Source: Haematobia irritans (Eukaryota > Arthropoda > Insecta > Diptera > Muscidae). From it: DNA of 64,000 nt. The stretch is from contig NC_134398.1 of NCBI RefSeq assembly GCF_050003625.1, forward strand, positions 65,790,891 through 65,854,890, given 5' to 3'. This document shows positions 10,387 through 63,047 of this stretch, in pieces. A program made the position numbers and the translations under genes. The notes under the pieces were generated by a model. That model saw only the letters and a list, made by a program, of their open reading frames with translations, had not been told where the DNA came from and made no database searches. The first letter of the stretch is position 1. The number at the start of each line of letters is the position of its first letter.

Positions 10387-10388
10387 CA

Positions 10389-11371
10389 GATCATATACTA
10401 ACACCATGTTCCTAATTACAACCGGATTGGATGAAATTTGCTTCTCTTGGAGACTTCGCAAGCCAAATCTGGGGATCGGTTTATATGGGGGCTATATATA
10501 ATTATGAACCGATGTGAACCAATTTTTGCAAGGTTGTTAGAGACCATATACCGATATCATGTACCAAATTTCAGGCGGATCGGATGAAATTCGCTTCTCT
10601 TTGAGACTCCGCAACCCAAATCTGGGGATCTGTTTATATGGGCGCTATATATAATTATGGACCGATGTGGACCAATTTTTGCACGGTTGTTAGAAACCAT
10701 ATACCAATACCATGTACCAAATTTCAGCCGGATCGGATGCAATTTGCTCCTATTTGAGGCATCGCAAGCCAAATCTGGAGATCGGTTATATGGGGTCTAT
10801 ATATAATTATGGACCGATGTGGACTAATTTTTGCGTGGTTGATAGAGACTATATATTAACACCATGTACCAAATTTCAGCTGGATCGGATGAAATATGTT
10901 TCTCTTAGAGGCTCCACAAGCCAAATCTGGGGATCGGTTTATATAGGGGCTATATATAATTATGGACCGATGTGAACCAATTTTTGCATGGTTGTTAGAG
11001 ACCATATACCAACACCATATACCAAATTTCAGCCGGATCGGATGAAATATGCTTCTGTTAGAGGCTCCACAAGCCAAATCTGAGAGTCCCTTTATATGGG
11101 GGCTATACGAAAAAGTGGACCGATATGGCCCATTTTCAATACCGTCCGACCTACATCGATAACAACTACTTGTGCCAAGTTTCAAGTCTATAGCTTGTTT
11201 CGTTCGGAAGTTAGCGTGATTTCAACAGACGGACGGACGGACATGCTTAGATCGACTCAGAATTTCATCACGACCCAGAATATATATACTTTATGGGGTC
11301 ATATAGCAATATTTCGATGTGTTACAAACGGAATGACAAAGTTAATATACCCCCATCCTATGATGATATAA
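10389..11371 (+). mobile_element. Helentron-like element, family D, copy lacking its GC-hairpin end
   Basis: Five to six D units with GGTTTATATGGGGGCTATAT and GGACCGATGTGGACCAATTT. Then the INE-1-like core in reverse: ACGGACGGACGGAC (11,230-11,243), 'agatcgactcagaatttc', 'atatatatactttatggggt', and an end with CCCCATCCTATGATG. A closing GGGTATA is degenerate. Frames of 71 to 109 codons on both strands are unit by-products. Confidence 0.72.
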
Positions 11372-26239: not shown

Positions 26240-26552
26240 TAGTTTCCAGAAAATGCGCTTGACCAAAAAACTGGTATTTAGATAAAGGTACTTACCTGCG
26301 ATAAAAATACAATATGGTGCGCCAAGAATGTTGCAAATGTTAACATTTCGAATCGCGGTACCGATACCACGGTTTATTTGCGGGTAAATCCGACCATTTT
26401 CTTAAGAAGATTCTTACACCCTCAAAAAAATCGCTTCTTTAACATATGTTCCAAACATATTTTGCAGGAAGCACATATATTATGGGATACTGCCGAAACA
26501 TTAATATGTTTGTTTTATGTGAACATATTATATGTGTGGAAGCATTTTGAGC

Positions 26553-26665
26553 CAGGGATCCGGAGCGGAGCAAGCCCTTTTTTAGCCGGAGCGGGAGCGG
26601 AGCGGGAGCGGCATTTCTAGAATCCGGAGCGGAGCGGTTTCCAAATGAAAAACCGCTCCGCTCCG
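26553..26665. repeat. GGAGCG subterminal repeats, left hAT end
   Basis: Many copies of GGAGCGG/GGAGCGGGAGCG followed by the inverted CCGCTCCGCTCCG at about 26,651. This is a sharp GC-rich island in AT-rich DNA. Short tandem motifs near the ends are typical transposase-binding arrays in hAT elements; binding is inferred. Confidence 0.75.
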
Positions 26666-26997
26666 AATAAAATATTACTTGAATGAAATGTGTAACTTTG
26701 AAATTACACTGTGTAGGTAATTTCAAATTTAGCTAGCACTTAGCGTAGTGTGAGCAAACGTTTAAAATGTACGATATGTATTTTTGTACGTACGTACATT
26801 GGGGAAAACACAACGTGTTTTTTTAGTAATTGTTTTCAAAAACGGCAAATGTCAAAATATATCTCTAGTATGTGTTGTAAAAGTAACAACAGTACTTTCG
26901 ATCAATTTCATCCCGTATTACTACAAAGATGTTTGTAATGAACGTCAAATAAATGCAATTAAACGATCTTATTTATATTTATTTTTTTAGTTTTCAA

Positions 26998-27609
26998 CAC
27001 TGAAAAAAATATTGTCGTGAAGTCAAAGATTCCATGTCCTTAGAATAAGAATGCAAATTTTGTTTAACATGGAAGACGCATTTCTCTAAAATTACGTTTT
27101 TTTTCTTGTCCAAAAGGCAATAAACTTTTGAATGAAGTTGTAATGTCCTTATAATTAAGTGATTTTACTTAAAAATGTGTATCATAACATGAAAGATACA
27201 ATTTTTGAGGTAAGGTCAACGTGACTTTAATAATTAAGAAAAATTCTTTAAAATTAATAAAATTGTCTTTAAATTTGTTTCCTTTTTGCATCTTGCCTAC
27301 AAAGCAAAAATCGTTAAAAATAAGACATGTTTTTCAACACTTTATTTTAAAGACGCTTTTTACTTGAAACATAGCATAATTTCTACTGGAAGGTGAGTCT
27401 TAATATGGAAAAAAATAACTCGTTAACTCGTTTTTAAAGGATTTTGATAACAACTGACGAAAAAAATCTAAAAAAAATGAAAAATTAACATTTGCTTCCT
27501 AGAAGCAAGTACATAACCCCCAAATTTAAAAGAGAATTACGTCTTTAAAGTATCCTTACTGTTAAAGTAAAGACAAAATCTTTGGAACCGGGCATGCTTT
27601 TTTTCAGTG
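26998..27609 (+). mobile_element. MITE family E1, full-length copy
   Basis: The left end is CACTGAAAAAAATATTGTCG and the right end is GGGCATGCTTTTTTTCAGTG. 612 bp. The right flank is TA but the left is AA, so the duplication has decayed. Interior words match the copies at 36,106 and 32,035. Confidence 0.7.
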
Positions 27610-29030
27610 TAAGGACATTCATATTGCTTTACTATTTACTATATCCTAGCATTCTCTTGTTTCTGATATTAGTTCTCGAAAATTTTATTAAAATTATGGA
27701 TAGTTTAAATTTTGGTTGAAAAATGTGCGCATATACATTTATTATAAAGGGTGATTCTTTTGAGGTTAGGATTTTCATGCATTAGTATTTGACACACTGT
27801 TAGAAAAATATGTTTTTCATATGTTCCGATATAAACAAAATGTGTTTCGGGCACGATTTTAAACCACAATATATTTAAGTGCGAACATGTAATTTTCCTA
27901 AACTAACACTAAATGTTTGGGACATCTATGTTAATATGTTAGAATATATTATGTTTGGGGCATGAATGTTTCATAAAAATCATATGTGTGAATACAAACA
28001 TATATAAATTTACAAATTTCAACTAAACATACATATGTTGTGATATTTTATTCAAAGCGACAGAGAGAGTATAGAGAGAAATAGAGATGGAAACCGGGAG
28101 AGTTGACGAAATATATCAATATAACACAGCAAAAGAGTCAAAAGAGAACAATTTCTGTGAAACCGCTTGTATGTTGTTTCGGAAAACTGTTTTATGATAA
28201 GGCCAAAAATTTGATATGCTTAAGTCTAAATATTATTTAATTTGAATAAAGAGAATAGACATTCGGAACCAAGAGAATAGACATTTGAAAAACAAACAGC
28301 ATATGTTTTCGCCTTGAGAGCAGCATTTTATGTATGTGTGAACATGTGTTTTGTTTATCATTTTGGCATTATGGGCACAATTTTTTTCTTGGTTCGTTAA
28401 AAGAAATCAGGGGTCTTCATAAAAATAGCGAAAGGGCACTATACACTTTTTAGAGTTGGGACAGTAAAATGAAATAAGGAGGAAATAGTGAAAAATTACA
28501 CAGTAAAATGTAAAAAAACAAACTTTAGTTCCTCTTTAGTAGTCCACGAGGAGTTGACGGACACCATCAAATATAAAAGCGGGCATTAAGTTCGAGTTTT
28601 ACAGCTAAAACAATTTAAAAAGTTTATTTCCTTTAAAATGAATTATTAAAGAAAAATAAAAGGAATTTTAGAGCGATGGTGTTAAATGCTAGTAAAAAAC
28701 TGTTCACTCCTAAATAAATTTATGTTTATATTATAAAATTATGTATGTATGTTTATACTCGACTCCATGTTCTTCTTTTGTTAGTTTTTGAATTCCTTCC
28801 AAATTTTAAAGTTTTGTACAAAAAGAGTTTTTTATTACAAGATTGTTATTTTTGCAATAAAAAATAATATTTTATCCAAAAATCAGTCAATTTCGTTTAT
28901 ATCAAGCACTGTTACTGACTATAAATCTTTAATAACGCACATTTCGAAGTTTCATTTAAAATAAATTAATATAGTATAAATATAAATGTGTAAATTAAAA
29001 AAAAAAAAAAAAAAAAACAAAAAAATGTTC

Positions 29031-29101
29031 GGTCGGAGCAGGGATTGAACCCACGACCCTTTGCATGCAAGGCAGACATGCTAACCACTGCTCCACGTGG
29101 C
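29031..29101 (-). ncRNA. tRNA-like Pol III module 1 (SINE-head type)
   Basis: On the minus strand it has box A-like TGGAGCAGTGGTTAGCATG and box B GTGGGTTCAATCCC, about 34 bases apart. GGAGCA near the start can pair with TGCTCC at the end, and CCTT/AAGG can form a stem around a 7-base loop. A proper U33 and D-arm are not evident, so it is tRNA-derived rather than a working tRNA. Beyond it on the same strand is a long T run, which would stop Pol III. The same head type occurs in the SINE at 23,130. Confidence 0.65.
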
Positions 29102-29218
29102 AAACAAATGTATGTTTCTGTTAAATAATGTTATGTTTGCATGGGCTCGTGGGCGCTGCAAACTATGCTATATAAATGTAACTTAAAACGATAATTATCT
29201 ACTGGTGACTATAACAGC

Positions 29219-29288
29219 TACGTAGCCCAGTGGATAGTGTGTTGGCTTACAAACTGTATGGTCCTCGGTTCGATTCTCCGTGCAGGCG
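29219..29288 (+). ncRNA. tRNA-like Pol III module 2
   Basis: Box A-like TAGCCCAGTGGATAGTG and box B-like TCGGTTCGATTCTCC, about 40 bases apart, with a TTACAAA segment where the anticodon loop would lie. Pairing in the T and anticodon arms is imperfect, so a functional tRNA is unlikely. It faces away from module 1. Diverged relatives are at 33,831, 40,751, 41,678 and 54,200. Confidence 0.6.
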
Positions 29289-29672
29289 AAAGGTAAAATT
29301 TAAAAAATTTATAAAAGTGAATAATTTCTTCAACATTATTTGTATTACAGAGAAAGGTGCCAATAACTAAAAAATTTCGTGGAAGTGAAAATTACGAGTA
29401 TGTTAGGGAATGAGCATAATCGTGTTTGGGAAAAATTCTTCCAAGCATATAATATTTTTGGCTCAAAATGCTTCCAAACATATAATATGTTCACATAAAA
29501 CAAACACATTAATGTTTCGGCAGTATGCAATAATATATGTGCTTCCTGCAAAATATGTTTGGAACATATGTTAAAGAAGCGATTTTTTTTGAGGGTGCAG
29601 ATCACGTGGGATTTCAGACATGGTGTCAAAGAGAAAGATGCTCAGTATGCTTTGACATTTCATCATGAATAG

Positions 29673-30377
29673 ACGAACGATCTGCCACAACGTCGAATTT
29701 TCAGTGAATGGGCCCAAGAAAAGTTGGCAGAAAATCCGATTTTTTATCGACAAATTTTGTTCAGCGATGAGGCTCATTTCTGGTTGAATGGCTACGTAAA
29801 TAAACAAAATTGCCGCATTTGGAGTGAAGAGCAACCAGAAGCCGTTCAAGAACTGCCCATGCATCCCGAAAAATGCACTGTTTGGTGTGGTTTGTACGCT
29901 GGTGGAATCATTGGACCGTATTTTTTCAAAGATGCTGTTGGACGCAACGTTACGGTGAATGGCGATCGCTATCGTTCGATGCTAACAAACTTTTTGTTGC
30001 CAAAAATGGAAGAACTGAACTTGGTTGACATGTGGTTTCAACAAGATGGCGCTACATGCCACACAGCTCGCGATTCTATGGCCATTTTGAGGGAAAACTT
30101 CGGAGAACAATTCATCTCAAGAAATGGACCGGTAAGTTGGCCACCAAGATCATGCGATTTGACGCCTTTAGACTATTTTTTGTGGGGCTACGTCAAGTCT
30201 AAAGTCTACAGAAATAAGCCAGCAACTATTCCAGCTTTGGAAGACAACATTTCCGAAGAAATTCGGGCTATTCCGGCCGAAATGCTCGAAAAAGTTGCCC
30301 AAAATTGGACTTTCCGAATGGACCACCTAAGACGCAGCCGCGGTCAACATTTAAATGAAATTATCTTCAAAAAGTAA
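29673..30377 (+). pseudogene. DD41D mariner transposase, N-terminally deleted, copy 1
   Basis: The readable frame runs from just after a TAG (29,670-29,672) to TAA at 30,378. Counting from the TTG codon at 29,724, the catalytic aspartates are D15 (LFSDEAHFW), D108 (WFQQDGATCHTA) and D150 (CDLTPLDYFLW). With 41 residues between the second and third, this is the DD41D spacing known from the rosa group of Tc1/mariner. The helix-turn-helix DNA-binding half is gone. An ATG at 29,665 survives but is out of frame with the catalytic part, and the first in-frame ATG lies beyond D15. The protein cannot be an active transposase, although the catalytic domain has no stops. It is nearly identical to the copies at 32,682 and 56,098 (for example I/L at residue 6). 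Confidence 0.88.
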
Positions 30378-30484
30378 ATGTCATGGACCAATCTAACGTT
30401 TCAAATAAAGAACCGATGAGATTTTGCAAATTTTATGCGTTTTTAAAAAAAAAAAAGTTATCAAGCTCTTAACAAATCACCCTT

Positions 30485-30649
30485 TACAATAAAGGGAAAA
30501 AAAGCGAAATTAGGTAACACTAGATCTGAGTAAGAATATTCGTAGGTATACCACGGACTGATGTCGATGGAGGTTGTTGCAAACATAAACATACACACAC
30601 ACATTACAAATATAACAAAACCTCTTCTCTACGTCTGTTGCAAAACAAA
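30485..30649. other. Spacer between mariner copy 1 and B copy 5
   Basis: Includes a short ACACACACAC tract near 30,592-30,602. Nothing else recognised. Confidence 0.4.
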
Positions 30650-31828
30650 AACAAGTAAGGAAAGTCTAAAGTCGGGCGGGGCTGACTATATTATACCCTG
30701 CACCACTTTGTAGATCTAAATTTTCGATACCATATCACATCCGTCAAATGTGTTGGGGGCTATATATAAAGGTTTGTCCCAAATACATACATTTAAATAT
30801 CACTCGATTTGGACAGAATTTGATAGACTTCTACAAAATCTATAGACTCAAAATTTAAGTCGTCTAATGCACTAGGGTGGAACACAATGTTAGTAAACAA
30901 ATATGGGAAACATTTAAATCTGAAGCAATTTTAAGGAAACTTCGCAAAAGTTTATTTATGATTTATCGCTCGATACACTGAAAAAACAGTGATCCCACCG
31001 GGAAGAAAATTTTGGGTTAATTTTAGAAAATTTTGAATATTTTTAGAATATTTTAACTAAACTATTTTGTGGGAAGCGCTAATTTAGTAAATCTTTTTGC
31101 TTAATTTGAGTATAATTTTTTCCCGTTTTTTAGTTCATTTAACTAACGTACGCAAAAAATTATTAGAGTAAATGAAACTTTCTCCAAACATAATAATTCC
31201 ATGAACTAAAATAAAGTTAAATAGGCTTTAGTGAAATAGAGAGTTCACTTTTTTTTTGTGTATATATGTATTAGAAGTTTAGGAAAATTAGAGTCATTTT
31301 TACAACTTTTCGACTAAGCAGTGGCGATTTTACAAGGAAAATGTTGGCCTCTGTGGGCAAATGAGTGTAAATCGGGCGAAAGCTATATATGGGAGCTATA
31401 TCTAAATCTGAACCGATTTGGCTGATATTTTGCAAGTTTTTCGAGACTCATAAAATATTCGGATGTACGGAATTTGAGGAAGATCGGTTGATATACACGC
31501 CAATTATGACCAAATCGGTGAAAAATATATATGGCAGCTATATCTAAATCTGAACCGATTTTTTCCAAAATAAATAGGGATCGTCTTTGAGCTGAAACAG
31601 GACCCTATACCAAATTTTAGGACAATCGGACTAAAACTGCGAGCTGTACTTTGCACACAAAAATACATCAACAGACAGACAGACGGACATCGCTAAATCG
31701 ACTCAGAATTTAATTCTAAGACGATCGGTATACTAAGCGATGGGTCTCAGACTTTTCCTTCTTGGCGTTACATACAAATGCACAAACTTATTATACCCTG
31801 TACCACAGTAGTGGTGAAGGGTATAAAA
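30650..31828 (+). mobile_element. Helentron-like element, family B, copy 5, with nested MITE
   Basis: Starts AAAACAAGTAAGGAAAGTCT with hairpin AGTCGGGCGGGGCTGACT. Its text parallels B copy 4 (18,586) very closely for the first 300 bp. It ends with a GACAGACAGACAGACGGACA microsatellite (31,670-31,689) and the hairpin ATACCCTGTACCACAGTAGT then GGTGAAGGGTATAA. A 285-bp MITE interrupts it at 30,976. It has only two units. Confidence 0.8.
30976..31260 (+). mobile_element. 285-bp MITE (CACTGAAAAAACAGTG end) with proven TA duplication
   Basis: The ends are CACTGAAAAAACAGTG and CACTTTTTTTTTGTG. Flanks CGCTCGATA and TATATATGTATTAGAAG join to give exactly the sequence uninterrupted at about 18,869-18,892 in B copy 4, with TA duplicated. 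Related copies are at 54,617-55,039 and 55,366-55,490. Confidence 0.88.
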
Positions 31829-32034
31829 ACTTTCGGAGAGTAGTTACTTCTACTCTGTGTATAGACTTTAAATTCCAATCAGCGTTGCCGTTTTGGTCCG
31901 ATCGGACCAAAATTGGTCCAAAAGATTTCTAATTTTTAAATTTGGTCCGATGGTCAGACCAAACAGAATTTGGTCCATTTTGATCCATTTTCATAAATTT
32001 GGTTTCTATCACATATTAAATAGTAGATGGTGCA

Positions 32035-32315
32035 CCGCAAAGAATATTGTCGGGAGGCCAAATATTTCACCTGCTTAAAATACGAATTTTGCTTAGAATA
32101 GAAGACGTATTTCTCTGAAAAAAAGTTTTTCCTTGTCTAAAAGTCTCTAAACTTTTCAATGAAGTCTGTTTGTCCTTATAGCTAAGTGATTCGACATAAA
32201 AATGTGTATCCTAACATGAATGCAAATTTCGTTTTAATGAAGTCAAAATGGATTTAATATTTCTGAAAAAATCTTCAAAATTAATAAAATGTTTCAACAC
32301 ATTGTTTTAAAGTCA
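32035..32315 (+). mobile_element. MITE family E1 fragment
   Basis: Matches E1 interior from 'aatattgtcgggaggcc' through 'aagacgtatttctctga' to 'ttgttttaaag'. It is interrupted by the B fragment that follows. Confidence 0.6.
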
Positions 32316-32316
32316 T

Positions 32317-32572
32317 TATACCCTAAACCACATAGTGGTTAGGGTATAATAAGTTTGATCTGAAAAAAAATGTGCCTACAAGAAATATTGATTTTAGACC
32401 CCATAAAATATATACCGATCGACTCAGAACCACCTCCTGAGTCGATCTAGCGCTTGGTGTCCGTCCGTCCATCCGTCCGTCTGTCCATGTATTTGTTGTT
32501 CACAGGATTTCGGTCGCAATTATTAACAGATTTTGATGAAATTTGGTACAGGGAGTTTTTTTGAACAAATAA
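32317..32572 (-). mobile_element. Helentron-like B-type fragment, TATACCC end with microsatellite
   Basis: Hairpin TATACCCTAAACCACATAGT then GGTTAGGGTATAATAAG. The core has CGATCGACTCAGAACCACCT, mirroring the end of B copy 3. A GTCCGTCCGTCC microsatellite is at 32,458-32,485. It stops where mariner copy 2 is inserted. Confidence 0.7.
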
Positions 32573-32574
32573 TA

Positions 32575-33507
32575 AAGGGTGATTTGTTAAGAGCTTGATA
32601 ACTTTTTTAAAAAAAAAAACGCATAAAATTTGCAAAATCTCATCGGTTCTTTATTTGAAACGTTAGATTGGTCCATGACATTTACTTTTTGAAGATAATT
32701 TCATTTAAATGTTGACCGCGGCTGCGTCTTAGGTGGTCCATTCGGAAAGTCCAATTTTGGGCAACTTTTTCGAGCATTTCGGCCGGAATAGCCCGAATTT
32801 CTTCGGAAATGTTGTCTTCCAAAGCTGGAATAGTTGCTGGCTTATTTCTGTAGACTTTAGACTTGACGTAGCCCCACAACAAATAGTCTAAAGGCGTCAA
32901 ATCGCATGATCTTGGTGGCCAACTTACCGGTCCATTTCTTGAGATGAATTGTTCTCCGAAGTTTTCCCTCAAAATGGCCATAGAATCGCGAGCTGTGTGG
33001 CATGTAGCGCCATCTTGTTGAAACCACATGTCAACCAAGTTCAGTTCTTCCATTTTTGGCAACAAAAAGTTTGTTAGCATCGAACGATAGCGATCGCCAT
33101 TCACCGTAACGTTGCGTCCAACAGCATCTTTGAAAAAATACGGTCCAATGATTCCACCAGCGTACAAACCACACCAAACAGTGCATTTTTCGGGATGCAT
33201 GGGCAGTTCTTGAACGGCTTCTGGTTGCTCTTCACTCCAAATGCGGCAATTTTGCTTATTTACGTAGCCATTCAACCAGAAATGAGCCTCATCGCTGAAC
33301 AAAATTTGTCGATAAAAAAGCGGATTTTCTGCCAACTTTTCTAGGGCCCATTCACTGAAAATTCGACGTTGTGGCAGATCGTAAGTCTATTCATGATGAA
33401 ATGTCAAAGCATACTGAGCATCTTTCTCTTTGACACCATGTCTGAAATCCCACGTGATCTGTCAAATACTAATGCATGAAAATCCTAACCTCAAAAGAAT
33501 CACCCTT
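32575..33507 (-). mobile_element. Tc1/mariner DD41D (rosa-like) element, copy 2, 933 bp
   Basis: Ends AAGGGTGATT and AATCACCCTT between TA duplications (32,573-32,574 and 33,508-33,509). Uninterrupted. It carries the same internal deletion type as copy 1, differing by two bases at the junction (agactTAcg against agacGAacg). Confidence 0.9.
32682..33386 (-). pseudogene. DD41D mariner transposase, N-terminally deleted, copy 2
   Basis: The catalytic core matches copy 1 with D15, D108 and D150 intact when counted from the TTG codon at 33,335. One difference falls next to the third aspartate (LDYLLW instead of LDYFLW). The open frame begins after the TAG at the deletion junction, and no in-frame ATG precedes the first aspartate. 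The DNA-binding half is missing, so the product should be inactive. The near identity between copies and the absence of internal stops point to recent amplification by a transposase supplied elsewhere. Confidence 0.88.
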
Positions 33508-33534
33508 TACAATGTTTGTACTATAATTTTCTCG

Positions 33535-33640
33535 AAGAGGAGCGGAGCGGAGCGATTTTTTTTCTCGGAACGGAGCGTGGAGCGGAGCGGTTTTTTTTTT
33601 CTCCGGAGCGGGAGCGGAGCGAAAAAAATGGACCGCTCCG
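33535..33640. repeat. GGAGCG subterminal repeats, right hAT end
   Basis: Repeated GGAGCGGAGCGG blocks with T-rich spacers, then CCGCTCCGGATCCCTG as the terminus. Overlapping 74-85 codon frames on both strands are low-complexity by-products. Confidence 0.75.
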
Positions 33641-33830
33641 GATCCCTGTTTTGAGCCCAAAAATATTATATGCTTGGAAGAATTTTTCCCAAAGACGATT
33701 GTGCTCATTGCCTAACATACTCGTAATTTTCACTTCCACGAAATATTTTAGTTCTTGGCCCCTTTTTCTGTAATACAAATAATGTTGAAGAAATTATTCA
33801 CTTTTATAAATTTTTTAAATTTTACCTTTC

Positions 33831-33902
33831 GCCTGCACAGAGAATCGAACCGAGGACCATACAGTTTGTAAGCCAACACACTATCCACTGGACTACGTAG
33901 CT
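33831..33902 (-). ncRNA. tRNA-like module 2, copy in the outer CAC...GTG element
   Basis: Nearly identical in reverse complement to 29,219-29,288. Box A reads TAGTCCAGTGGATAGTG and box B GGTTCGATTCTC on the minus strand. Module 1 of this element is cut down to GCCACGTGGAGCAGTAGTCAG at 34,017-34,037, so only this module is left. Confidence 0.6.
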
Positions 33903-35373
33903 GTTATAGTCACCAGTAGATAATTATCGTTATAAGTTACATTAATATAGCATAGTTTGCAGCGCCCACGAGCCCATGCAAACATAACATTATTTAACAG
34001 AAACATATATTTGTTTGCCACGTGGAGCAGTAGTCAGTAACAGTGCTTGATATAAACGAAATTGACTGATTTTTGGATAAAATATTATTTTTTTTTTTTG
34101 CAAAAATAACAATTTTGTAACAAAAAACTGGCGTGAACAGTTTTTTACTAGCATTTAACACCATCGCTCTAAAATGCCTTTTATTTTTCTTTAATAATTC
34201 ATTTTAAAGAAAATAAACTTTTTAAATTGTTTTAGCTGCAAAACTCGAACTTAATGTCCGCTTTTATATTTGAAGGTGTCCGTCAACTCCTCGTGGACTA
34301 CTTATTAATAAAGTGGAACTAAACTTTGTTTTTATACATTTTACTGTGTAATTTTTCACTATTTTCTCCTTATTTCATTTTACTGTCCCAACTCTAAAAA
34401 GAGTATAGTGCCCTTTCGTTATTTTTATGAAAACCCTTGATTTATTTTAACGAACCAAGAAAAAAATTGTGTTCATAATGCCAAAATGATAAACAAAACA
34501 CATGTCCACACATACATAAAATGCTGCTCTCAAGGCGAAAACATATGCTGTTTGTTTTTCAAATGTCTATTCTCTTGGTTCCGAATGTGTATTCTCTTTA
34601 TTCAAATTAAATAATATTTAGACTTAAGCATATCAAATTTTTGGCCTTATCATAAAACAGTTTTCCAAAACAACATACAAGCGGTTTCACAAAAATTGTT
34701 CTCTTTTGATTCCTTTTTTTTTCTTTCGCTGTGTTATGTTGATATCTTTCGTCAACTCTCCCGGTTTCCATCTCTATTTCTTTCTCTATACTCTCTCTGT
34801 CGCTTTGAATAAAATATCACAACATATGTATGTTTAATTGAAATTTGTAAATGTATATATGTTTGCATTCACACATATGATTTTTATGAAACATTCATGC
34901 CCCAAACATAATATATTCTAACATATTAATATAGATGTCCCAAACATTTAGTGTTAGTTTAGGAACATTACATGTTTGCACTGAAATATATTGTGTTTTA
35001 AAATTGTGCGCGAAAAACATTTTGTTTATATCGGAACATATGAAAAACATATTTTTCTAACAGTGTAATAATAACAATAAATGACATTTTATTGTTTGTA
35101 TTAATTTATTTTTCGTTACGTAGCAACGTCATAAACAGTTTTATCAGGCAATTACGCATTATACTTAAATCAATAACTTTTATACTTGGTCCAATTGAAC
35201 ATAGTAATTGATGTGTTGTGAATTCAATTACCAGTGAATTTTGATATTTTTGCCAGTTTTTCATTCAACCAATTATTTTCATGTTTGACTTAATAAAAAT
35301 CGTATTTGATATAATTTTTTCATTCAATTATGCCAATAATTGATTTTTATTTTGCTTCAGTTTTTTCTGTGTA

Positions 35374-40640: not shown

Positions 40641-40960
40641 AACAATTTACTGAAGACAGCCTCTAACCACTTTATTTTCAGTAATACAAAGAATACCAAA
40701 TTTTTTAAATTAGACGCAAATATCAAATTTTATAAATTATTTTAATTTTAACCCGGACGAAGAATCGTACCACAGGCCACAAGTTTTGTAATCAACACAC
40801 TATACGTTGGACCATTTAGCTCTTGTACTCATCAATACGCATTAGCACACTCCTAACGCACACATATAAACATGTATATTTATAGACTAGTACGTAATGC
40901 ACACATAAGCACATTTAAAGAAACTTATTTTATAGAAAACAAATGTTTAATGAACTGCCT
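40640..40960 (-). repeat. Worn fragment of the tRNA-carrying CAC...GTG family
   Basis: Text around 40,680-40,750 ('cagtaatacaaagaatacca', then AT-rich) parallels 33,770-33,830. It is followed by a module 2 relative at 40,751-40,822. Neither terminus was found. Confidence 0.45.
40751..40822 (-). ncRNA. Decayed tRNA-like module 2
   Basis: The minus strand reads TAAATGGTCCAACGTATAGTG, then ATTACAAAACTTG and GGTACGATTCTTCG. Box A and box B are each altered at positions that should weaken Pol III binding. Confidence 0.4.
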
Positions 40961-49152: not shown

Positions 49153-51056
49153 ACAAAAAACAAGTATATACGGCCGTAAGTTCGGCCAGGCCGAATCTTA
49201 TGTACCCTCCATCATGGATTGCGTAGAAACTTCTTCTAAACACTGCCATCCACAATCGAATTACTTAATTTGCGGTAACGCTTGCCGATGGCAAGGTATC
49301 TTAAAACCTCCTAACACCATCTTCTAAATTGTATGTAAGTCCATACGTGGTATATATTAAATCAAAAAAGATCGATCCAATACGTATATAATTCAAAGTA
49401 GACGTAAAATTTTGACAAAATTTTCTACAGAAATAAAATTTTAACAAAATTTTCTATAGAAATAAAATTTTCACAAATTTTCTATAGAAATAAAATCTTG
49501 GTAGACTATTTTTGGCTCGAGTGGCAACCATGATTATGAACCGAATAAAATTTGAACAACATTTTCTATAGAAATAAAATTTTGACAATGATGAAAATTT
49601 TATTATGAACCGAATAAAATTTTAACAAAATTTTCTCTAGAAATAAAATTTTGACAAAATGTTCTATAGAATTAAATTTTGGTAGATTATTTTTGGCTCT
49701 AGTGGCAACCATGATTATGAACCGATATGGACCAATTTTTGTGTGATTAGACCAATTTTGGTATGGTTGTTGTCATTGAGCTTAACATGGAATCGGGCAG
49801 CACTCAGTGATAAGAGAGAAGTTCACCACTGTGGTATCACAATGGACTGAATAGTCTAAGTGAGCCTGATACATCGGGCTGCCACATAACCTAACCTAAC
49901 CTAGCGACCATATACTAACACCACGTTCCTAATTTGAACCGGATCGGATGAATTTTGCTCCTCCAAGAGGCTCCGGAGGTCAAATCTGGAGAACGTTTTA
50001 TATATATTATATATATAATTATGGACCGATATGGACCAATTCTGGCACGGTTGTTAAAGATCATATACTAACACCACGTTCCAAATTACAACCGGATTGG
50101 ATGAAATTTGCTTCTCTGTGAGGCTCCGCAAGCCAAATCTGGGGATCGGTTTATATGGAGGCTATATATAATTATGGACCGATGTGGACCAATTTTTGCA
50201 TGATTGTTAGAGACCATATACCAACACCATGTACCAAATTTCAGCAGGATCGGATGAAATATGCTTCTCTTAGAGGCTCCACAAGCCAAATCTGGGGATC
50301 GGTTTATATGGGGCCTATATATAATTAAGGACCGATATGGACCAATTTTTGCATGGTTGTTAGAGACCATATACCAACATCATGTACCAAATTTCAGCCG
50401 GATCGGATGAAATCTTCTTCTCTTTGAGACTCCGCAAGCCAAATCTGGGGATCGGTTTATATGGGGGCTATATATAATTATGGACCGATGTGAACCAATT
50501 TTTGCATGTTTGTTAGAGACCATATACCAACACCATGTACCAAATTTCAGCCGGATCGGATGAAATTTGCTTCTCTTTTAGGCTCCGCAAGCTAAATCTG
50601 GAGATCGGTTTATATGGGGGCTATATATAATTATGGACCGATGTGGACCAATTTTTGCATGGTTGTTACAGACCATATACCAACACCATATACCAAATTT
50701 CAGCCGGATCGGATGAAATGTGCTTCTGTTAGAGGCTCCACAAGCCAAATCTGAGGGTCCCTTTATATGGGGGCTATACGTAAAAGTGGACCGATATGGC
50801 CCATTTTCAATACCATCCGACCTACATCGCTAACAACTACTTGTGCCAAGTTTCAAGTCGATAGCTTGTTTCGTTCGGAAGTTAGCGTGATTTCAACAGA
50901 CGGACGGACGGACGGACGGACATGCTTAGATCGACTCAGAATTTCACCACGACCCAGAATATATATACTTTATGGGGTCTTAGAGCAATATTTCGATGTG
51001 TTACAAACGGAATGACAAAGTTAATATACCCCCATCCTATGATGGAGGGTATAAAA
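49153..51056 (+). mobile_element. Helentron-like element, family D, complete, with SINE inserted
   Basis: Starts AAAAAACAAGTATATACGGC with TTCGGCCAGGCCGAA. The TTTCTATAGAAA minisatellite is at 49,410-49,690, and about seven units follow. A GACGGACGGACGGACGGACA microsatellite lies at 50,899-50,920, and the terminal hairpin is ATACCCCCATCCTATGATGG then AGGGTATAAAA. A 131-bp insert sits at 49,772. Confidence 0.8.
49772..49902 (+). mobile_element. 5'-truncated SINE with (CCTAA)n tail
   Basis: D sequence reads GGTATGGTTGTT|AGCGACCATATAC uninterrupted at 57,521-57,545; here 131 bp separate the halves. The insert begins GTCATTGAGCTTAACATGGA, matching the 3' part of the SINE at 23,130-23,400, and ends CATAACCTAACCTAACCT. 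Loss of the 5' head and a short repeat tail fit incomplete reverse transcription. A target duplication of more than one base is not visible. Confidence 0.75.
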
Positions 51057-53639: not shown

Positions 53640-54614
53640 CACCCTCACAAAAAATCGCCTCTGTAACATATACTCCCAAACATATTTTGCTTCAAGCATA
53701 TACATTTTTGGGTATTGCCCAAACATTTATATGTTTGATCTCTTCCAATATATAATATGTTTGAAAGCATATTGGTCTAAACAATATATGTTTGGGTAGG
53801 CTAAGTTCCAAACATTTTGTATTTTTGCATCCAAATTATATAATGTTGTCTTCCAAAAAACAATATGTTATTATGTGAACATATAATATGTTTGGAAGCA
53901 TTTTGCACCCAAAAATATTATATGCTTAAAAAAAAATCTCCCAAACAATATTGTGCTCAAAATTTTATTTATTTATATATTTACAATCATAATGAATTAT
54001 GAAAATAAACAGGTAATATAGGTGCTAACAACATAGGTTTTCGACCTGAATGCTCAAAATTTTGTTTCTGCTTAATTGTATATTCCCCCACATCTTTCTC
54101 ACTTCCAAGAGATTTTTTAGTTCTTAGCACCTTTCTCTGCAATACAAACATTGTAGAAGAAATTATTCAATTTTATGATTTTTTTTTTATTTTAAATTTA
54201 CCTTTTGCCGGACGGGGATTCGAACAGCGGACCACACAGTTTGTAAGGATCAAAGAAGTAGCTGATCAATTGCCCAAGGAAAAATAAAATGTTAATTTTG
54301 TAATAACAAGCAACAACCACCAACTTAATTCAATATCGCTCCTTGTTAAATAGCGCACCAAGCTACTAAACACATATATGTTTATAGGCTATTTCTAAAT
54401 TAATATATGTTTGCATCCAAGCATATTATATTTACAAACATTTTATGTCCCAAACATAATATGTTCTAACATATTAACATATATGTCCCAAACATGTTAT
54501 GCTAGTTTATGAACATTATATGCTTGCACTCAAAAATATTGTGTTTAAAAATTTGTGTTCCAAACATATAATGTTTATAGCCAAACATATGAAAAACAGT
54601 CTTTTTTATCCGTG
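53640..54614 (-). mobile_element. CAC...GTG transposon with tRNA-like module, short diverged copy
   Basis: CACCCTCACAAAAAATCGCC to CTTTTTTATCCGTG, flanked by TA (53,638-53,639; 54,615-54,616). 975 bp. It is full of CCAAACATATAATATGTTTG-type words and holds a half-decayed module 2 at about 54,200-54,270 (minus strand GGTCCGCTGTTCGAATCCCC as box B). Confidence 0.72.
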
Positions 54615-56935: not shown

Positions 56936-59141
56936 TTAAAACCTCCTAACACCATCTTCTAAATTGTATGTAAGTCCATACGTGGTATATATCAAATCAA
57001 AAAAGATCGATCCAATACGTATATAATTCAGTTCGACAAAGTAGACATAACATTTTGACAAAATTTTCTACAGAAATAAAATTTTCACAAAATTTTCTAT
57101 AGAAATAAAAATTTTGACAAAATTTTCTATAGAAAGAAAATTTTGACAAAAATTTCTACAGAAATAAAATTTTAACAAAATTTTCTATAGAAATAAACTT
57201 TTGACAAAATTTTCTATAGAAATAAAATCTTGGTAGATTTTTTTTGGCTCGAGTGGCAACCATGATTATGAACCGAATAAAATTTGAACAAAATCTTCTA
57301 TAGAAATACAATTTTAACAAAATTTTCTATAGAAATAAAATTTTGACAATGATGAAAATTTTATTATGAACCGAATAAAATTTTAACAAAATTTTCTCTA
57401 GAAATAAATTTTTGACAAAATTTTCTATAGAAATAAAATTTTGGTAGATTATTTTTGGCTCTAGTGGCAACCATGATTATGAACCGATATGGACCAATTT
57501 TTGTGTGATTGGACCAATTTTGGTATGGTTGTTAGCGACCATATACTAACACCACGTTCCTAATTTGAACCGGATCGGATGAATTTTGTTCCTCCAAGAG
57601 GCTCCGGAGGTCAAATCTGGAGAACGTTTTATATGGGGGCTATATATAATTATGGACCGATATGGACCAATTCTGCCACGGTTGTTAAAGATCATATACT
57701 AACACCATGTTCCAAATTACAACCGGATTGGATGAAATTTGCTTCTCTTGGAGACTTCGCAAGCCAAATCTGGGGATCGGTTTATATGGGGGCTATATAT
57801 AATTATGAACCGATGTGGACCAATTTTTGCATGGTTGTTAGAGACCATATACCAATATCATGTACCAAATTTCAGGCGGATCGGATGAAATTTGCTTCTC
57901 TTTGAGGCTCCGCAAGCCAAATCTGGGGATCGGTTTATATGGGGGCTATATAAAATTATGGACCGATGTGGACCAATTTTTGCATGATTGTTAGAGACCA
58001 TATACCAACACCATGTACCAAATTTCAGCCGGATCGGATGCAATTTGCTTCTCTGTGAGGCTTCGCAAGCCAAATCTGGAGATCGGTTTATATGGGGTCT
58101 ATATATAATTATGGACCGATGTGGACCAATTTTTGCATGGTTGTTAGAGACCATATACCAACATCATGTACCAAATTTCAGCCGGATCGGATGAAATTTG
58201 CTTCTCTTTGAGGCTCCGCAAGCCAAATCTGGGGATCGGTTTATATGGGGGCTATATATAATTATGGACCGATGTGGACCAATTTTTGTACGGTTGTTAG
58301 AGACCATATACCAATACCATGTACCAAATTTCAGCCGGATCGGATGCAATTTGCTTCTCTGTGAGGCTTCGCAAGCCAAATCTGGAGATCGGTTTATATG
58401 GGGTCTATATATAATTATGGACCGATGTGGACCAATTTTTGCATGGTTGTTAGAGACCATATACCAACATCATGTACCAAATTTCAGCCGGATCGGATGA
58501 AATTTGCTTCTCTTTGAGGCTCCGCAAGCCAAATCTGGGGATCGGTTTATATGGGGGATATATATAATTATGGACCGATGTGGACCAATTTTTGCATGAT
58601 TGTTAGAGACCATATACCAACACCATATACCAAATTTCAGCCGGATCGGATGAAATATGCTTCTCTTAGAGGCTCCACAAGCCAAATCTGGGGATCGGTT
58701 TATATGGGGGCTATATATAATTATGGACCGATGTGGACCAATTTTTGCATGGTTGTTAGAGACCATATACCAACATCATATACCAAATTTCAGCCGGATC
58801 GGATGAAATATGCTTCTGTTAGAGGTTCCACAAGCCAAATCTGAGGGTCCCTTTATATGGGGGCTATACGTAAAAGTGGACCGATATGGCCCATTTTCAA
58901 TTCCATCCGACCTACATCGATAACAACTACTTGTGCCAAGTTTCAAGTCGATAGCTTGTTTCGTTCGGAAGTTAGCGTGATTTCAACAGACGGACGGACG
59001 GACATGCTTAGATCGACTCAGAATTTCACCACGACCCAGAATATATATACTTTATGGGGCCTTAGAGCAATATTTCGATGTGTTACAAACGGAATGGCAA
59101 AGTTAATATATCACCATCCTATGATGGAGGGTATAAAAAGT
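56936..59141 (+). mobile_element. Helentron-like element, family D, longest unit array
   Basis: Resumes after TTAA at 'aacctcctaacaccatcttc'. The minisatellite is at 57,040-57,440, then about nine units. GGACCAATTTTTG starts fall at 58,124, 58,277, 58,430, 58,583 and 58,736, exactly 153 bp apart. It then has ACGGACGGACGGAC (58,990-59,003) and the end CACCATCCTATGATGGAGGG with TATAAAA. Seven frames of 66-108 codons on both strands are by-products of the units. Confidence 0.8.
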
Positions 59142-61010: not shown

Positions 61011-63047
61011 ATACCCACCACCATAGAATGGTGACGGGGGTATAATAAGTTTGTCATTCCGTTTGTAACACATCGAAATATCGATTTCCGACTATATAAA
61101 GTATATATATTCTTGATCAGGGAGAAATTCTAAGACGATATAACGATGTCCGTCTGTCCGTCTGTCTGTCTGTTGTAATCACGCTACAGTCTTCAATAAT
61201 GAAGCAATCGTGCTGAAATTTTGCACAAACTCGTCTTTTGTCTGCAGACAGGTCAAGTTCGAAGATGGGCTATATCGGTCCAGGTTTTGATATAGTCCCC
61301 ATATAAACCGACCTCCCGATTTGGGGTCTTGGGCTTATAGAAATCGTAGTTTTTATCCAATTTGCCTGAAATTGGAAATCTAGTGGTATTGTAGGACCAC
61401 AAATACGTGTGCCAAAAATTGTGAGTATCGATCCATGTTTTGGTATAGCCCCCATATAGACCGATTTCCCGATTTTACTTGTTGGGCTTATAGAAACCGC
61501 AGTTTTTATCCAATTTGCCTGAAATTTGAAATCTAGAGACCTCTTTATGACCATAAAGAGGTGTGCCAAAAATGGTGAGTATCGGTCCATGTTTTGGTAT
61601 AGCCCCCATATAGACCGATCTCCCGATTTTACTTCTTGGGCTTATAGAAACCGCAGTTTTTATCCAATTTGCCTGAAGTTTGAAATCTAGAGGTATTTTA
61701 TGACCATAAAGAGGTGTGCCAAAACTGGTGAGTATCGGTCCATATTTTGGTATAGCCCCCATATAGACCGATCTCCCGATTTTACTTCTTGGGCTTATAG
61801 AAACCACAGTTTTTATTCAATTTATCTGAAATTGGAAATCTAGAGGTATTGTAGGACCACAAATACGTGTACCAAAAATTGTGAGTATCGATCCATATGT
61901 TGGTATAGCCCCCATATAGACCGATCTCCCGATTTTACTTCTTGGGCTTATAGAAATCGTAGTTTTTATCCAATTTGCCTGAAATTTGAAATCTAGAGGT
62001 ATTTTATTACCATAAAGAGGTGTGCCAAAACTGGTGAGTATCGGTCCATATTTTGGTATAGCCCCCATATAGACCGATCTCCCGATTTTACTTCTTGGGC
62101 TTATAGAAACCGCAGTTTTTATCCAATTTATCTGAATTTGGAAATCAAAAGGTACTTTAAAATCGTAAAGAGGTGTGCCAAAAATGGTGAGGATCGGTCT
62201 ATGTTTTGGTATGGTGCCCATATAAACCGACCTCCCGATTTGGGGTCTTGGGCTTATAGAAACCGTAGTTTATATCCAATTTGCCTGAAATTGGAAATCT
62301 AGATGTATTTTAGGACCATAAATAGGTGTGCCGAAAATGATGAGTACCGGTCCATATTTTGGTATAGCCCCCATATAGACCAATTTTCCGATTTTACTTC
62401 TTGGGCTTCTAGAATCCAAATTTTTTATCCAATTTGCCTGAAATTGGAAATCTAGAGGTATTTTCGGGCCATAAAGAGGTGTGCCGAAAACGGTGAGTAT
62501 CGGTCCATATTTTAGTATAGCCCCCATAAGAACGATTTCCACATTTAACACCTTGGGTTTCTAGAAACCGTAGTTTTTATCTGATTTGCCTGAAATTCTA
62601 AATATTCTGGTATTTGAGGCTCACAAAAACGTGTATCGGATTAAGTTTTTATCGGTCCATTTGGTAATGCCTCCATATAGACCGACTTCACTTCTTGAGG
62701 GTGTAGAAGGCCAACTCATCATGAAAATTGCTTGAAACTCAATGCAAAATTTCCAAATTTTACTTCTCGGGTGCAAATCTACAGATTTAAGATTTCAAAT
62801 CAAGACGTTATTTTATAATTTTCTTGCACATTTACAAGAGATGTTAATAATTCCTCTAAAACTCAAACAAAAATGGTTCTTATAAATCCAGAATCTGATA
62901 TAGTCCTCATAGGTGAAATCTTTAAATTTATATTCCGGAAGTGTCCTCAAGCCCTCCTGAAATTTCAAAGGAAACCCTAATATTTGGTTCATGGTTGTGG
63001 GTATTTAAGATTCGGCCCGGCCGAACTTACTGCTGTATATACTTGTT
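61011..63047 (-). mobile_element. Helentron-like element, family C, complete copy 3
   Basis: Hairpin TATACCCACCACCATAGAAT then GGTGACGGGGGTATAATAAG. Core TATATATTCTTGATCAGGGA, and GTCCGTCTGTCCGTCTGTCT at 61,147-61,166. Unit starts (CGGTCCAT or CGATCCAT) fall at 61,583, 61,736, 61,889 and 62,042, exactly 153 bp apart. The terminal hairpin is ATTCGGCCCGGCCGAACTTA with TATATACTTGTTTTA. The 93-134 codon minus-strand frames (repeating MGAIPKYGPILT) are unit translations. Confidence 0.85.

Follow-up and report, generated by a model that had tools for sequence, protein, structure and literature searches.

The window, that is, the whole 64,000-nucleotide stretch of Haematobia irritans DNA analyzed here, contains a transposable element, designated Q, that begins with CACTGTTAG and finishes with GAGGGTG. 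The features that delimit this copy (L003) are:

27795-29597, plus strand: whole non-autonomous DNA transposon of the Q family (1803 bp, CACTGTTAG...TTTTGAGGGTG)
27793-27794 (left) and 29598-29599 (right), unstranded: 2-bp target duplication CA
27808-28220 (left) and 29477-29572 (right), unstranded: subterminal AACATAT repeats

Using positions 29000-29320 as the query, we scored 40 of 138 candidates, every one of them 99-100% identical, and fetched 30 loci, of which 27 hold an intact 1803-bp Q element. All 27 start with CAC and finish with GTG (the C of CAC is changed in L019), and each is bounded on both sides by matching 2-bp flanks, pyrimidine-purine in every case, which read TA in 20 copies, TG in five, CA in one and CG in one. 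These fixed ends and flanks bear out the first-pass annotation, which had called the CAC...GTG element a transposon: Q is a non-autonomous DNA transposon. Its majority sequence has no long open frame, the longest stop-free stretch spanning 83 codons, and its two ends, as read from the sequence, resemble each other imperfectly when inverted. Twelve copies of the heptamer AACATAT lie in the outer 590 bp and none in the inner 1213 bp, against 0.9 occurrences expected for the whole element from Markov shuffles; they are clustered as transposase binding sites would be, and we consider the repeats putative sites of this kind. As a rule, Tc1/mariner elements duplicate TA only, and the TG, CA or CG flanks of 7 of the 27 copies argue against assigning Q to that group. 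Subterminal repeats are a property of the CACTA superfamily; Q has the 2-bp duplication of the animal members and neither the CACTA start found in plants nor the CCC start of animal TRC elements.

The Q copy of the window is inserted within a copy of another element, which we take to be mariner-like, and an inverted second copy of the latter (32556-33520) preserves the undisturbed site. The mariner-like copies (29598-30503 and 32556-33461, likewise named on our own assumption) are 98% alike, each with a frame of 217 amino acids; a Pfam search at E 0.001 returned no family for four frames of the window, both of these included. They lie inside a 7.1-kb insertion (26553-33648) with inverted ends CAGGGATCCGGAGCGG and an exact 8-bp duplication, TTTTGAGC, at 26545-26552 and 33649-33656, a pattern that we presume to be that of hAT elements. 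This insertion in turn splits another, old copy, designated copy B, so that the nesting comprises three levels: Q in a mariner-like copy, inside the 7.1-kb insertion, inside copy B. Arrays of a 153-bp tandem unit are spread across the window (57510-58897, 49902-50807, 10388-11107, 61273-62597 and others).

Two back-to-back tRNA-like modules

The interior of Q holds two tRNA-like modules that point away from each other:

29031-29101, minus strand: module 1, tRNA-like and SINE-head-like (box A 29095-29085, box B 29051-29041)
28997-29025, minus strand: T-runs 3' of module 1 (an A-run on the plus strand), a possible Pol III terminator
29219-29288, plus strand: module 2, tRNA-like (box A 29223-29233, box B 29267-29277)

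A motif scan re-located the boxes, and the coordinates, strands and outward orientation given by the first-pass annotation proved right. In both modules, box A and box B are spaced as in a tRNA (44 nt from start to start in each), which is the layout of a type 2 Pol III promoter. Specifically, module 1 matches the consensus at 5/6 positions of box A and 9/9 of box B, and module 2 at 6/6 and 8/9. The T run claimed for module 1 is present, beginning 26 nt past the start of box B; 3' of Q module 2, the majority sequence goes 188 nt without four consecutive T. The window has six pairs of box A and box B motifs, where 40 Markov sequences average 5.1, which is chance level, and a box B of 9/9 is found in module 1 only (0.1 expected). 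We take the modules as real because of homology, not because of motif counts.

Neither module appears to be a functional tRNA gene, both being rejected by ARAGORN at default settings, which reports no tRNA at either, and by the Rfam cut-off. The Rfam tRNA model scores module 1 at 20 bits over 58 nt (cut-off 29) and gives no match for module 2. At thresholds of 70% and 60%, ARAGORN returned unassignable tRNA-like hits for Q module 2 and for both modules of a second family, E2 (described below), and none for Q module 1. A 28-base word of module 2 had no match when scanned against viral contigs.

Module 1 is, at the sequence level, related to the head of an abundant local SINE, which is tRNA-headed, at least 330 bp long and represented by long matches of 92-97% identity:

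L046:3181-3509, L053:2933-3254, L042:5904-6166, L035:300-648 and, decayed, window about 23146: local SINE

The resemblance to the head of the full SINE reaches 85.7% identity over 77 bp and includes bases past box B. In L035, a Q copy (55-1215) contains this SINE, with a GGTTA-repeat at its far end and an exact 11-bp target duplication. Like a SINE, both modules have the tRNA-related head type with box A and box B, module 1 also by its similarity to SINE heads, and they lack a significant target duplication of their own as well as a body or tail; the SINE body (that of L002) is absent at either module. Flanking repeats as good as or better than the one at module 1 arise in 22-34% of random place pairs within the element, and in 33-90% of random pairs for module 2. 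The first-pass annotation had named SINE insertion with target duplications as one finding that would overturn its proposal; no significant flanking repeat exists at either module. Matches to module 2 in 137.7 kb all fall in cores of these elements or their remains, none of them beside a SINE body.

A core older than the split of the Q and E2 families

The copies used to assess the modules were chosen independently of them. With a query situated 500 bp away (28150-28500), 40 of 650 candidates were scored, and 20 of these 40 Q copies were read at the modules; three more were the window copy, L002 and L004 (whole), and 17 were left out. Both modules are present in 20/20 copies read, the exact box words being retained in 20 (box A) and 19 (box B) copies for module 1 and in 19 and 20 for module 2.

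The E2 family was encountered as a 912-bp element adjoining the copy in L005, with ends CACGCAAAG...TTTGCGTG and TA on either side; L032 holds a second whole copy with TA flanks. An E2 query, for which 40 of 1481 candidates were scored, returned copies 94-100% identical over nearly the whole query, and 12 fetched from these 40, together with L031 and L032, make up the E2 copies read (n=14). Q and E2 share a homologous central region:

28769-29391, plus strand: core common to Q and E2 (77% identity over 661 aligned columns with L031:7171-7825)

The E2 core (~620 bp) contains the same back-to-back module pair in the same layout, each box word occurring in 13 of the 14 copies read and at least three of the four in all 12 fetched. 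The first five bases across Q, E2 and a derivative C family read CACTG, CACGC and CACGG. Since the same pair is found in E2, which has different ends, and in Q copies picked elsewhere in the element, the pair is inherited, and any insertion that gave rise to a module must predate both families. By homology, this shows that the core with its two outward tRNA-like modules is older than the split of the Q and E2 families. The first-pass annotation had held that at least module 2 belongs to the element; the 20 Q copies and the E2 layout extend this to both modules. The two resemble a long-established promoter cassette, putatively transcribed, more than a pair of chance insertions. Among 15 random 10-kb stretches, Q or E2 cores occur in L041 only, C fragments in L046 and L049, short weak E2 matches in L043 and L054, and long SINE matches in L042, L046 and L053. 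The L041 stretch (1-2470) comprises a Q-like copy, a C-family element inserted near its module 2 and, not far off, the 3' end of an E2 element.

The core contains two additional features reminiscent of a Pol II transcription unit:

29168-29177, plus strand: TATA-like word CTATATAAAT between the modules (19/20 Q copies)
29293-29350, plus strand: 58-nt intron-like stretch, AAG/GTAAAA...TATTACAG/A, predicted from sequence

The E2 counterpart of the TATA-like word, TATATAAA, is present in 14/14 copies, and the splice-like words are found in 20/20 Q and 14/14 E2 copies.

Other members of this group retain the modules in part or not at all:

33649-35065, minus strand: first part of copy B, with module 2 intact and module 1 without box B
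26417-26552, minus strand: 3' end of copy B
53640-54614, minus strand: C-family copy with related ends, no module 1 and only the 3' half of module 2
40661-40949 (approximate bounds), minus strand: old core fragment with spacer, decayed module 2 and following stretch

The modules had been said to recur at all of these places. At 26417-35065, which is the single copy B split by the 7.1-kb insertion, module 2 is kept but module 1 has lost box B by deletion. Intact modules at 53640-54614 could not be upheld: module 1 is missing from that copy, and of module 2 it retains just the half with box B. At 40.7 kb, the fragment shows old homology to the spacer, module 2 and the following stretch (alignment score 121, against 69 for the best of 100 shuffles), with no module 1 aligned there. 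Six C-family copies were seen (window, L004, L036, L039 and two in L041), all without module 1 and without box A of module 2, and L036 retains still less of module 2. Both C-family elements and the L035 copy, which is without the core, have both ends and TA flanks and no intact modules; the core deletion of L035 may be later than its insertion. Because the C family multiplied without intact modules, these are not needed for movement. Copies lacking the modules, which the first-pass annotation had considered fatal to its claim, do exist (the C family, L035 and old copies), but all 20 Q copies chosen blind to the modules carry both. Further deletions occur in L014 and in the second copy of L010. 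A Q copy in L010:2227-3114, read with L033, lacks q974-1269 and is 95% identical to the window copy to the right of the deletion and 81% to the left, with an AT-rich insert of ~570 bp further left; it is perhaps a recombinant.

Conservation was evaluated on the copies retrieved with 28150-28500 and with the E2 query, not on the 27 copies that the module stretch had selected. The parts most alike between Q and E2 are the intron-like stretch (identity 0.881), then module 2 (0.871) and module 1 (0.845), followed by the spacer (0.809); identity is 0.645 immediately ahead of module 1 and 0.78 farther upstream, and it is 0.727 in the sequence that follows these parts and 0.481 outside the core. The two families agree at all 24 box positions that are fully specified (with 20 mismatches in 141, p 0.018). 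Variants present in at least two copies affect 1/141 module columns versus 7/140 flank columns in Q, and 1/141 versus 22/421 in E2, a combined deficit with a Mantel-Haenszel p of 0.003 (spacer left out) that derives from few counts, related copies, a post hoc test and flanks of our own choosing (Q 28935-28996 and 29348-29425; E2 61-308 and 655-832). The outer 5' end of E2 (13-60), with no shared variants in 48 columns, was not counted as flank. With the spacer counted, the Q figures become 2/258 versus 7/140 (p 0.011), and with the spacer and intron-like stretch, those of E2 become 7/318 versus 22/421 (p 0.037). The ratio of shared to private variants is 2:25 in the modules versus 29:80 in the flanks (p 0.04); for private changes, modules and flanks show no significant difference (p 0.18 in Q with the spacer, 0.23 in E2). 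The deficit of shared variants weakly suggests that source copies kept the modules under constraint, with drift in the inserted ones.

Possible roles of the core and related systems

The core has the look of a promoter region: a pair of Pol III promoters, Pol II control sequences of a transposase gene since lost, or the two combined. In the reading that we prefer, and to which we give a little less than an even chance, the center of Q, a non-autonomous DNA transposon of high copy number, holds an inherited promoter cassette whose Pol III boxes were once functional in the source lineage. The subterminal AACATAT repeats would be bound by a transposase provided in trans, and module 1 and the head of the local SINE would belong to the same tRNA-derived lineage. 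The modules would act, or would have acted in source elements, as an outward bidirectional promoter, with Pol III boxes on both sides and the TATA word between them; source copies would have retained this promoter as the inserted ones drifted, and with each insertion the genome would gain two box pairs of the Pol III type. Against module function speak the motif count at chance level, the failure of the modules to qualify as tRNAs by ARAGORN and Rfam, the lack of a nearby four-T run at Q module 2, the C family and L035 without intact modules, and the loss of modules from old copies. A bolder proposal, which we regard as quite unlikely, is that a partly SINE-related cassette is kept by selection on source copies and carried across families with different terminal repeats, seeding many hundreds of loci with promoters of the tRNA type or TFIIIC sites, its transcripts or bound factors possibly aiding spread or sheltering the element from silencing.

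The TATA word and the intron-like stretch in the core make a Pol II promoter a serious rival, albeit one that we place on the unlikely side. The core would then derive from an autonomous ancestor, as the control region plus the first intron of its transposase gene, with the TATA word at 29168-29177, a start near 29200, module 2 in the untranslated first exon and the intron at 29293-29350; the Pol III-type boxes would be incidental or secondary, and re-seeding of families from autonomous copies would have kept the cores similar. The prevalence of the TATA and splice-like words in Q and E2 agrees with this account, as do the top ranking of the intron-like stretch in Q-E2 identity and its retention in the C family, where the modules are not intact. 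No autonomous copy turned up among those read, however, and the account leaves two tRNA-like modules on opposite strands unexplained; nor is the intron-like stretch of E2 poor in shared variants (3 in 60 columns). Neutral cargo, namely the remains of an old SINE or tRNA-related insertion in the ancestral element, passively copied and never of use, would accommodate the 85.7% match of module 1 to the SINE head and the multiplication of the C family without intact modules, and has a precedent in MER6, where SINE parts are described as riding a DNA transposon (PMC6887750). The modules are, however, more similar between Q and E2 and show a deficit of shared variants, and we consider this explanation unlikely.

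Two recent, independent SINE insertions in this copy or family are very improbable: module 1 does resemble the SINE head, and L002/L035 show that SINE inserted in these elements, but neither module has a significant flanking repeat of the kind exemplified by the exact 11-bp repeat of L035, no SINE body lies at the modules, E2 has the same pair, and the module 2 matches never fall outside cores or their remains. Chance agreement with a loose Pol III consensus, a possibility raised by the roughly five box pairs that arise at such stringency per 64 kb of Markov sequence, is practically negligible in view of the Rfam score of module 1, its SINE-head match and the preservation of both box pairs in two families.

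Should the boxes work, as in the preferred promoter-cassette reading, a cut-and-paste element would distribute Pol III promoters or TFIIIC sites, a role otherwise credited to SINEs. First-look candidates numbered 650 for the internal part of Q and 1481 for the E2 query, 40 of each having been scored. Since one genome contains copies that have both modules, half a module or none, the effects of such sites on neighboring genes or boundaries could be compared directly. Even as cargo, the modules would add, beside MER6, a further instance of SINE-related sequence on a DNA transposon, here the promoter head and not the body.

In the open-licence literature, the scope of our search, we found no element with two outward tRNA-like modules. 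Several systems share part of the layout. Animal CACTA (TRC) elements such as SmTRC1 (PMC1636069) and Spongebob (PMC4298943) are described with 2-bp target duplications, as in Q, and with ends that start with CCC, whereas Q, E2 and C start with CAC and no transposase turned up for them among the copies read. Insect tRNA-derived SINEs, as characterized in PMC8010984, have a tRNA-related head with box A and box B, as do the modules, of which module 1 is close to the local SINE head; unlike them, Q has transposon ends, 2-bp duplications, no SINE body and no signs of retroposition at the modules. The ATon elements of Aedes aegypti (PMC3422177) are, like Q, short high-copy insect elements with a dinucleotide target; ATon-I and II measure 112 and 144 bp and use AT targets, and the main text of that report does not mention tRNA. 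MER6 and MER6A are described as mariner-type MITEs with a V-SINE domain (PMC6887750). Like Q, MER6 is a short non-autonomous DNA transposon that carries and multiplies SINE-derived sequence. According to that description, it contains SINE body and tail with no tRNA-related head, whereas Q and E2 contain head-like sequence with box A and box B, present twice, facing outward and in two families with different ends. The Q/E2 layout has, in MER6 as described, a known precedent for SINE parts on a DNA transposon, from which it differs in its outward pair of the head type.
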